The notes under the pieces: generated by a model
Seen by the model: only the letters and a program-made list of their open reading frames with translations
Database searches by the model: none
Told to the model about the DNA's origin: nothing
Position numbers and translations under genes: made by a program
Part shown: one piece after another, positions 9,372 to 12,089 of the stretch
How positions within the stretch are numbered: position 1 is the stretch's first letter
How the letters are laid out: every line of letters starts with the position of its first letter
Assembly: GCF_001421505.1 (NCBI RefSeq)
Contig: NZ_LMKL01000001.1
Coordinates: 124,001-188,000 of the forward strand
DNA length: 64,000 bases
Origin: Sphingomonas sp. Leaf17
GTDB taxonomy: Bacteria; Pseudomonadota; Alphaproteobacteria; Sphingomonadales; Sphingomonadaceae
Reading direction: 5' to 3'

Positions 9372-12089
9372 TCAGTCAATATTCGGCCGCAACCACCGCT
9401 CCGCCTGCGCCAGTTCCACCCCGCGCCGCGCGGCATAATCGGCGACCTGATCCGGCCCGACCCGCGCCACGCCGAAATATTCCGCCTGCGGATGGCCGAA
9501 GTAGAAACCCGACACCGCCGCTGTGGGAAACATCGCGAAACTCTCGGTCAGTTCCAGACCCGTGGCGGCCGGCGCATCCAGCAGGTCGAACAGGATCGGC
9601 TTCAGGCTGTGATCGGGGCACGCCGGATAGCCCGGTGCCGGCCGGATCCCGCGATATTGTTCCTTGATGAGCGCATCGTTGGTCAGTTGTTCGTCGGGCG
9701 CATAGCCCCACAGGTTCTGCCGGACATGTTTGTGCAGCCGCTCGGCGAACGCCTCGGCGAAGCGGTCGGCCAATGCCTTCAGCAGGATGTCGTTGTAATC
9801 GTCATGGGCCGCCTTGAACCGCGCGATATGCGGGTCGATGCCGTGGATGCCGACCGCGAACCCGCCGAACCAGTCTCCGGCGGGATCGACGAAATCGGCC
9901 AGGCACATGTTCGCCCGCCCCTCGCGCTTGGCGATCTGCTGGCGCAGCATGGGGAACCTAAATTCCTCCCCGGCACGGGGAGGGGGATCATCCGCAGGAT
10001 GGTGGAGGGGCGCTTCCGCAAGGGCTTCGCTTCGTGGCAGCCCCCCCTCCACCGGCTGCGCCGGTCCCCCTCCCCGTGCCGGGGAGGAATAAACGACCAC
10101 GTCATCGCCCTCGCGCCGCGCCGGCCACAGCCCCGCGACCCCACGCGGCGTCAGCCACTTTTCGGCAATGATCGTGTCGAGCATCGCCTGCGCGTCCGCG
10201 TACAGCGACGATGCGCTCTCCCCGACCACCGGATCGGTCAGAATCGCCGGGAAATTCCCCGCCAGCTCCCACGCGCGGAAAAACGGCGTCCAGTCGATAT
10301 AGTCGCGCAGGTCGCTCAGATCCCAGTCTGGGAATACGTGCACGCCCGGCTTCGCCGGCGCGGCCGGCTTCAGCGCGAAGTCCGCCACGAACCCGCGCGC
10401 GCGCGCCGTCTCGATCGGGATCAGCTCGCTCTGCCCCTTGTTGGCCCGCGCGATCCGCACCGCTTCATACTCGTCCGCCGTCCTCGTCACGAATTCGTCG
10501 CGGATCGTGTCGCTGACCAGCGTCGACGCGACCCCCACCGCGCGGCTGGCGTCCAGCACATGCACGACCGGCCCGTCATAAGCCGGCGCGATTCTGAGCG
10601 CGGTATGCACCTTCGACGTCGTCGCCCCGCCGATCAGCAGCGGCATGGTCATGCCCGCGCGCTTCATCTCCTCGGCCACCGTCACCATTTCGTCCAGCGA
10701 CGGCGTGATGAGGCCCGACAGGCCGATCATGTCGGCGTCATTCTCGTTCGCCGCCTCCAGGATCTTCGACCAGGCGACCATCACGCCCAGATCGACCACG
10801 TCAAAGCCGTTGCACTGGAGCACGACGCCGACGATGTTCTTGCCGATGTCGTGGACGTCGCCCTTCACGGTCGCCAGCACGATCTTGCCCTTGCCGCGCG
10901 CGCCCGGCTCCTTCATCGCCTCGATATAGGGCAGCAGGTGGGCGACCGCCTTCTTCATCACCCGCGCCGATTTCACGACCTGCGGCAGGAACATCTTGCC
11001 GCTGCCGAACAGGTCGCCGACGACGTTCATGCCGTCCATCAACGGCCCCTCGATCACCTCGATCGGGCGTCCGCCATTGCCGGCGATGATCTGGCGCGCC
11101 TCCTCGGTGTCCTCGACGACATGCAGGTCGATACCCTTGACCAGCGCATATTCCAGCCGCTTGTTGACGCTCAGCGACCGCCATTCCGCCGCCGCCTTCT
11201 CGGCGACCACGTCGGTCCCGCGATACCGCTCGGCCAGCGCCACCAGCCGGTCGCCGGCCTCCGCGTCGGTGTTGAGCACCACATCCTCGACCGCCTTGCG
11301 CAGTTCGGGGTCGATATCGTCATAGATGTCGAGCTGGCCCGCATTGACGATCGCCATGTCCATGCCGGCGGGGATCGCGTGATACAGGAACACGCTGTGC
11401 ATCGCCCGGCGCACCGGCTCGTTGCCGCGAAACGAAAAGCTGAAGTTCGACAGCCCGCCCGAAATATGGACGTGCGGACAGCGCGCCTTGATCTCGCGGC
11501 ACGCCTCGATGAAGTCGACGCCGTAATTATTGTGTTCCTCGATCCCCGTCGCCACCGCGAACACGTTGGGGTCGAAGATGATATCCTCCGGCGGGAAGCC
11601 GATCGTCATCAGCAGGTCATAAGCACGCGAGCAGATTTCGACCTTGCGGTCCTTGGTGTCCGCCTGCCCGACCTCGTCGAACGCCATCACGACGACCGCC
11701 GCGCCGTACGCCATGCACTTCTTCGCCTGTGCGATGAACTGCGCCTCGCCCTCCTTCATGCTGATCGAATTGACGATCGGCTTGCCGGACACGCATTTCA
11801 GTCCCGCCTCGATCACGCTCCATTTGGAACTGTCGACCATGAACGGGATGCGCGCGATGTCGGGCTCCGCCGCGATCAGCTTCAGGAACGTCGTCATGGC
11901 GTGTTCGGCGTCGAGCAGCCCCTCGTCCATGTTGACGTCGAGCACCTGCGCGCCCGACTCCACCTGCTGCCGCGCGACCTCGACCGCCGCCGGATAGTCC
12001 CCCGCCATGATGAGCTTCTTGAAGCGCGCGGATCCGGTGACGTTGGTGCGCTCGCCGATGTTGACGAAGTTGGTGGAGGAGGTGGTCAT
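9372..12089 (-). CDS. metH: methionine synthase, folate/cobalamin/activation part of MetH
   Basis: A 905-aa protein corresponding to the C-terminal three quarters of MetH. Domains: pterin-binding (about 5-290, starting [13 protein letters not shown]), cobalamin-binding cap and Rossmann domain (about 300-560, with cobalt-ligand motif DVHDIGKN at 411-418), and the AdoMet-dependent reactivation domain (about 580-905, with [14 protein letters not shown]-type and [18 protein letters not shown] segments). It methylates homocysteine with 5-methyl-THF via B12 together with the separate N-terminal protein upstream. Residues about 667-710 are encoded by a palindromic repeat (9962-10090) inserted between DDVVVY and MLRQQ of the activation domain; the frame stays open. 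It starts at ATG 12089, 119 bp after the N-part gene. Confidence 0.95.
9962..10090. repeat. palindromic element inside the metH coding frame (129 bp)
   Basis: Both ends read ATTCCTCCCCGGCACGGGGA inward, so the ends are perfect inverted repeats of at least 24 bp. Internal stems include ATCATCC/GGATGGT around GCA and ACCGGC/GCCGGT. A near-identical copy lies inside murD at 44301-44428. On the metH strand the element adds about 43 residues rich in Pro, Gly and Arg (starting [12 protein letters not shown] and ending PPPRAGEE), which have no counterpart in ordinary MetH proteins. Confidence 0.92.

Follow-up and report, generated by a model that had tools for sequence, protein, structure and literature searches.

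An in-frame palindromic repeat in metH of Sphingomonas sp. Leaf17 occupies a loop that other palindrome families fill in relatives

How does a long palindrome come to lie in a conserved enzyme gene without breaking its reading frame? The question is raised by a 64,000-nucleotide stretch of the Sphingomonas sp. Leaf17 genome (contig NZ_LMKL01000001.1, positions 124,001 to 188,000; referred to here as the window). A palindromic element, of a family that we call A, lies there at 9962..10090 on the minus strand, inside the gene for the folate-, B12-, and S-adenosylmethionine (AdoMet)-activation domains of a split MetH (metH2, 9372..12089, minus strand, approximately 905 residues, start codon placed by eye). 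Our data indicate that the element is a dispersed repeat and that the same loop of MetH is filled by palindromes of other families in related genomes. We consider the best overall explanation, and a probable one, to be in-frame insertion of such a repeat, with broken copies purged and the translated loop tolerated.

We found that the element is 129 bp long and is bounded by perfect inverted arms (9962-9987 and 10065-10090) of 26 nt each, 100% complementary and 77 nt apart, at the position given in the initial annotation. The claim made there of an insert within the AdoMet-activation domain that leaves the frame intact is borne out as well. The metH frame (open reading frame, ORF, 9372-12377, minus strand, start codon at approximately 12089) is open across the element, which accounts for about 43 residues (MetH approximately 669-712). 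The protein is MetH by TIGR02082, above the cut-off, and the PF02965 activation domain spans residues 592-892 of the scanned piece, with the insert inside it. Alignment to E. coli MetH is interrupted at piece residues 674-717, where 9 E. coli residues fall in the gap. The element region has a predicted RNA fold of -105.2 kcal/mol (z -8.88), and none of 200 shuffles folded as well.

The element is not a chance occurrence, since BLAST returned 35 matches to it in its own 3.2-Mb genome. Family A stands at 14 places there, metH included (15 separate pieces plus metH, with two pieces at L011 and two at L014 merged). The arm core CTCCCCNNNNCGGGGAGG has 18 palindromic occurrences in this genome and its reversed control none. 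Of 196 genomes sampled across the order, 47 contain the core followed by GGGGGACC; these 47 all belong to the same taxonomic family as the window, and the reversed pattern is found in no genome. A search for copies inside coding genes, as the initial annotation had proposed, located two more in frame. One lies in murD, a gene of cell-wall synthesis and an essential one in well-studied bacteria: BLAST and alignment place this second family-A element at 44301..44428 (minus strand), upstream of LMVAPLDDL, within a UDP-N-acetylmuramoyl-L-alanine--D-glutamate ligase gene (TIGR01087; 43174..44568, minus strand, start codon by eye). The other lies in the gene for a 2-oxoacid dehydrogenase E2, in the linker that joins the lipoyl domain to the E3-binding domain; this E2 scores below curated cut-offs and may belong to the pyruvate or another complex. 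None of the remaining 11 places has a demonstrated location inside a conserved gene; in the 8-9 ORFs over or beside them, the sole Pfam matches were to SufBD and UPF0262 domains, each of which lies clear of the element.

Palindromes recur at the MetH loop in relatives. Our MetH sample joined 80 loci (the best 80 of 581 confirmed) to 29 loci of the same genus (of 99 genomes with a match, the best 30 less the window's own). Both flanks were recovered from every locus, and 105 rows remained after a second copy of the window (L099) and five duplicates were dropped. A loop was called palindromic at a score of at least 12, which 1 of 580 shuffled MetH loops reached. By this measure 24 of the 105 rows contain a palindrome, of family A (4 rows), B (12), C (3), D (3), or E (1) or, in one row, a composite of D and F; the other 81 comprise 47 short loops and 34 long loops that are not palindromic. 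Loop length is a multiple of three in all 105 rows, and the stretch from DDVVVY to MLRQQ, 46 residues here, ranges from 5 to 64 residues in relatives. The statement of the initial annotation that ordinary MetH has only a short loop at this position thus holds for E. coli and the 47 short rows and fails for the 34 long ones. It had also named unrelated DNA at the same loop of relatives as a sign against its reading. Such DNA is literally what we found, yet 23 of the 104 other rows are palindromic, 3 with the window's family and 20 with other families, and this widens the claim.

Some other Sphingomonas clades (L036, L038, L040, L111, L112, and others) have a palindrome-free MetH loop of 35 residues with a recurring ..SPDGA..PDL.. 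pattern, or a loop of 41 residues. A record named 'Bacillus sp. 2B10' (L033, RPSH01000005.1) carries a Sphingomonas-type metH and stands beside S. hankookensis in the tree; it is probably mislabelled or contaminated.

MurD and E2 of relatives are filled in the same manner. The MurD sample had 28 rows (27 from the genomes of 28 loci searched and one from another search, with the window's own murD additional), after one locus with a missing flank (L181) and three repeats (L145, L197, L198) had been dropped. An element lies at the same place in 13 of them, of family A (4), B (8), or a B and F composite (1). A fourteenth row reaching the score (L188, score 13, 33-bp loop) was not counted. MurD loop lengths are in frame in 27 of 28 rows, the exception containing Ns. 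For E2, 30 rows including the window genome were compared (L220 and L227 dropped for a missing flank, L158, L159, and L228 as repeats); 20 linkers score as palindromic, with family B in 11, A in 4, G in 2, C in 1, and no family in 2 (L219, L222). Shuffled E2 linkers reached the score in 3 of 330 cases, and lengths are in frame in 29 of 30 rows. The printed translations of the MetH, MurD, and E2 inserts contain no stops. Family B is also in frame in valS of two genomes (L129, L132) and in ileS of two others (L136, L137), each identified by NCBIfam, and in a third ileS (L131) recognized solely by its likeness to L136 and L137. The best ValS stretch of L129 breaks off at residue 586, shortly before the insert at 590-623.

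Two inserts, in the MetH of L117 and the MurD of L182, are composites in which one palindrome is interrupted by another carrying the motif AGTTCCGGGTC..GACCCGGAACT. Runs of N occur inside the palindromic inserts of L180 (MurD) and L222 (E2), which suggests that these hairpins defeat assemblers and that counts of such inserts are too low.

A GC-frame test covered 54 loci, 14 of the window's genome and 40 of relatives, the latter chosen mainly for long open frames. In 11 of the 40 relatives' loci, a count that is not a rate, a single open coding frame crosses the element at a distance from the ORF start (ValS L129, L132; IleS L131, L136, L137; MurD L145, L152; E2 L154, L158, L159, L160). Among the 14 own loci metH and L009 were positive. 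The ORF begins at the element in L133, L139, L140, and L143, a stop falls inside it in L157, L168, and L013, and the rest have no common frame. The window's murD was missed because its gene start falls inside the upstream test stretch; the murD case therefore rests on alignment and NCBIfam.

The architecture of the element points to a folded structure. It consists of two inverted half-units around a 33-nt spacer (10011..10043, delimited from the sequence). Read on the coding strand, half-unit 1 (10044..10090, minus strand) comprises an outer hairpin CCTCCCCG-GCA-CGGGGAGG, an inner hairpin ACCGGC-GCA-GCCGGT, and a mirror purine arm GGAGGGG; the inverted half-unit 2 (9962..10010, plus strand) has the same outer hairpin and mirror arm around an inner hairpin ATCATCC-GCA-GGATGGT. 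The general plan is CCTCCCCG-GNA-CGGGGAGG, then a second hairpin, then GGTGGAGGGG. Across the loci compared, the outer loop is GNA in 39 of 42 half-units; 22 inner hairpins have a triloop, which is GNA in 18. The 29 distinct inner hairpin sequences have a mean perfect stem of 6.83 bp, compared with a shuffled mean of 0.66 and a largest value of 1.28 in 1000 shuffled sets. The half-units therefore show structural covariation: the sequence of the inner hairpin varies and its pairing stays. The final arm GGAGGGG mirrors GGGGAGG, as in the layout of an intrastrand purine triplex. By eye, both half-units have the pyrimidine, purine, and mirror purine arms CCTCCCC, GGGGAGG, and GGAGGGG of the general triplex layout, which might allow a triplex to form. 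GNA triloops favour DNA hairpins and form very stable DNA mini-hairpins; we therefore infer that selection, or a mobilising enzyme, acts on single-stranded DNA in its folded form. Folding with DNA energy parameters gave the two strands alike, with no support for a strand preference.

The B-type MetH insert behaves, judged by its substitutions, as weakly constrained coding sequence. In ten genomes its variable sites number 6, 8, and 17 of 42 at the first, second, and third codon positions, so that third positions vary more than first and second together (17/42 versus 14/84, Fisher p 0.005). A ratio resembling dN/dS is 0.25 in the insert and 0.04 in the flanks. These tests take sites as independent and genomes as given. 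We also modelled the activation domain with AlphaFold from 40 aligned window and locus sequences. The mean pLDDT is 77.4, and insert residues 121-154 of the model fall below 50 between strands 114-118 and 160-164. The model superposes on E. coli 1msk (Z 33.4, rmsd, root-mean-square deviation, 2.1, 307 residues aligned) and also matches the human MetH activation domain, so the insert is presumably a disordered loop in an otherwise MetH-like domain.

How does the element compare with known repeats? The initial annotation had read it as an in-frame palindromic element of the kind found in Rickettsia and Wolbachia, and a dispersed repeat in a conserved gene supports that reading. Rickettsia palindromic elements (RPEs) are palindromes of 105-146 bp in frame in conserved protein genes, one of which, in gmk, is translated and gives an active product (PMC2229807), and several families are known (PMC10969869). 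Like RPEs and their Wolbachia counterparts, the present element is a dispersed palindrome in the range of approximately 100-150 bp (129 bp, 26-bp ends, 14 places) and lies in frame in conserved protein genes (metH, murD, and E2). We liken the two by behaviour and not by sequence homology: the window's element comes from another lineage and differs in design, with G+C-rich half-units, GNA hairpins, and mirror purine arms, and unrelated families here share the same loops across species. Its host belongs to the same genus as G099, a genome with the metH locus of Sphingomonas aurantiaca MA101b, and not to Rickettsia, so we say that it works like an RPE and do not file it as one.

The terminal inverted repeats are those of a miniature inverted-repeat transposable element (MITE). 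ERIC/RU-1, NEMIS, and other MITEs are likewise small non-autonomous repeats with open frames fused to genes (PMC2759123, PMC10969869, PMC2229807). The TA ends and target duplications described for them in PMC2229807 are not evident by eye in the flanks here. The layout of the half-units is also that of published intrastrand triplex repeats such as the TM_ECO motif (CCCTCNCCCN3-6GGGNGAGGGN3GGGNGAGGG), which Holder et al. 2015 (PMC4666352) describe as always intergenic in E. coli MG1655 and as occurring there in inverted pairs too. Family B, a sister family of A, matches this consensus without mismatch in at least one half in all 12 B-type MetH rows, whereas its copies lie in frame in metH, murD, E2, valS, and ileS. 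The consensus has 0 matches in the window: in family A an entire hairpin takes the place of the second loop of 3 nt, and this exceeds the loop lengths of 1-6 nt searched for in PMC4666352.

Repetitive extragenic palindromic sequences (REPs) and their paired form, REPINs, resemble the element in consisting of inverted pairs of short palindromes, some inside genes. The initial annotation knew of no such elements in sphingomonads, and the present one is probably not the first, as intragenic palindromes of another kind occur in E. litoralis and in 'S. alaskensis', which we take to be Sphingopyxis alaskensis. These are GTAG- and CGTC-tagged REPs, with tRNA synthetases among their hosts (Di Nocera et al. 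2013, PMC3733652), and the same paper describes two Xanthomonas species with different REPs at about the same site of recB. Family A, in contrast, has no GTAG or CGTC tag adjoining its ends: when the 15 nt beyond the ends were read in 7 copies, GTAG occurred in 0 and CGTC in 2, in neither case adjoining an end. Among the leading matches of a literature search, which took in few subscription papers, we found no MetH or MurD inserts, no intragenic triplex motifs, and no sites shared by several families except recB of Xanthomonas. In-frame palindromes, intragenic REPs, and triplex motifs are thus already in print, and the shared, refilled sites are the surprise.

We propose the following course of events. 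A dispersed, non-autonomous, MITE-like palindromic repeat, built of two inverted half-units and a short spacer, would have inserted into a loop of the MetH activation domain. The gene would have stayed open for two reasons: open frames are present in the G+C-rich repeat, and the net length inserted is a multiple of three. The repeat would be translated as a disordered loop rich in Pro, Gly, and Arg that the enzyme tolerates, nearly neutrally for MetH, and copies that break the frame or fall at intolerant positions would be purged. Purging would therefore leave the same few tolerant loops and linkers (MetH, MurD, and E2, with ValS and IleS in relatives) to be seen filled, the filler at each site being whichever palindromic family is active in that lineage. 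The inserts extend coding palindromes of the Rickettsia kind to a genus of free-living bacteria, and they place inside housekeeping genes a class of repeat that, in E. coli, is reported to be exclusively intergenic. The close relatives also offer a natural replicate experiment, in which one enzyme loop carries different peptides.

Several observations weigh against in-frame insertion, purging, and tolerance as the whole explanation. Long palindrome-free loops, as in the 34 MetH rows, mean that length is not diagnostic of an element. No clean empty site has been worked out at the nucleotide level, which leaves transposition an interpretation, and by eye we saw no target-site duplication in the flanks inspected. 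PF01797, the domain of REP-associated tyrosine transposases (RAYTs), has no match in this genome. Third positions vary less in the B-type insert than in the flanks (17/42 versus 175/260, p 0.002), which may mean that constraint or homogenisation acts on the DNA itself. In the AlphaFold model, residues 253-273, which contain no insert, also have a pLDDT below 50, and low confidence alone is no proof of disorder. Finally, the non-coding spacer between metH1 and metH2 is also filled, which simple filtering does not easily explain.

That spacer separates metH2 from metH1, the homocysteine-binding half of the split MetH (12209..13258, minus strand, start approximate, named by sequence resemblance). 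In the window most of it consists of a family C palindrome (CCCCTCCCGC..GCGGGAGGGG, 12103..12207, no strand assigned), found by a strict palindrome scan and by comparison of spacers. A C-type peptide gave 13 weak matches in the window's genome, the best being this spacer itself. By eye, the window and 12 chosen relatives all have a palindrome in the spacer (13/13), with families A, B, C, and E represented as well as others. We then read 27 spacers from a wider set of 28 loci. A score of at least 12, which had no shuffle control on spacers, was reached by 16; the negatives are all four loci from other taxonomic families of the order and seven others (L250 was filled with Ns, and L247 repeats a sequence of the 13-locus set). 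A strict exact-seed test was positive in 6 of 28 spacers; for comparison, metH-neighbourhood DNA totalling 273,043 bases contained 7 palindromes. Filling of one site by different families, together with the filled spacer, exceeds what tolerance alone easily predicts, and either replacement in place or a function of the hairpin may contribute.

Replacement in place would mean that a site already holding a palindrome is the preferred target, that a new family inserts into or replaces the old one, and that first insertions are rare; positions would stay fixed as the families changed. We regard this as possible, if short of probable. On a DNA tree of 20 metH flanks the seven loop states need 9 changes and 67 of 200 label shuffles need no more, so the recent family of the MetH loop is not detectably clustered by descent; near neighbours on this tree carry A, B, C, or an almost empty loop. 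The composite inserts of L117 and L182, the filled spacers, and the presence of several families at each of the four sites (MetH, MurD, E2, and the metH1-metH2 spacer) point the same way. On a protein tree of all 105 rows, however, the labels are clustered (19 changes against a shuffled mean of 49.1, none of 200 shuffles as low), as is family B alone (7 changes against 11.6, none of 500 as low), two rows, L100 and L117, being mislabelled in both counts. This clustering arises because loop classes follow deeper clades, and the two trees together indicate inheritance of the deeper loop pattern and no detectable inheritance of the recent one. Moreover, the clear composites number two, neither a demonstrated chimaera of two families, and recombination in the flanks, by which alleles pass from one species to another, would scatter families too and could contribute to the scatter seen.

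A stronger form of the idea holds that Sphingomonas has fixed 'sockets', a few sites (MetH, MurD, E2, and metH1-metH2) at which structurally similar, unrelated palindromes replace each other quickly, in frame where the site is coding. We put this forward tentatively, as a somewhat unlikely generalisation. If true, it would imply an enzyme that recognises a folded single strand, with its GNA hairpins and triplex-like arms, instead of a sequence, and that targets sites already so folded; the movement of orphan palindromes would then become directly testable.

Alternatively, the palindromes might be kept for a role of the mRNA or DNA hairpin, such as intercistronic processing or protection, ribosome pausing, or nucleoid or gyrase binding, whatever the family, provided that the hairpin is strong. 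The very stable predicted fold, the low third-position variation of the insert, and the refilling of the same positions by different families, including a non-coding spacer inside the met operon, are consistent with such a role. We nevertheless think it unlikely, as an element is missing from 81 of the 105 rows for MetH and from 14 or 15 of the 28 for MurD, and S. aerolata, inside a mostly filled clade, has loops of 15 residues in MetH and 17 in MurD (L027, L191).

Recruitment of the inserted peptide for MetH function, for instance as a docking site for a partner in reactivation, appears improbable. Some purifying selection on the B-type insert (the ratio of 0.25) and its presence in all ten genomes compared would fit, but unrelated peptides from different families stand at the same loop, first and second positions vary 2.6 times as often in the insert as in the flanks (14/84 versus 33/520), and the insert is modelled as a low-confidence loop. 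That the element is untranslated (through ribosome skipping or RNA removal) or an assembly artefact is very improbable indeed: hairpins can trouble assembly, as the Ns in the L180 and L222 inserts may reflect, and direct evidence for this account is lacking, whereas similar inserts recur in many separate assemblies and have lengths divisible by three (105/105 MetH, 27/28 MurD, 29/30 E2) with no stops, a frame that a skipped element would not need.

With in-frame insertion of a dispersed repeat still the preferred explanation, we considered what might mobilise it. A REPIN driven by a RAYT is unsupported for this genome, given the absence of a PF01797 match. Across the genus PF01797 matched in 11 of 101 genomes, 10 of them above the cut-off. 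Of the 12 relatives searched for B-type copies, G010 alone has a match, and those richest in B-type matches (G099, G070, G093, G024, G074) have none. Movement would thus presumably proceed through the folded single strand and an enzyme other than a RAYT. Spacer elements of family G in two relatives (L252, L254) carry CGTC at both ends, and others (L242, L245, L260) at one end or none.

The window contains two more palindromic repeats of other families, apparently intergenic, at 8119-8229 and 9230-9352. An Rfam scan of the window returned one tRNA and nothing else. Four of the five strict palindromes of the window fall within 8.1-12.3 kb.

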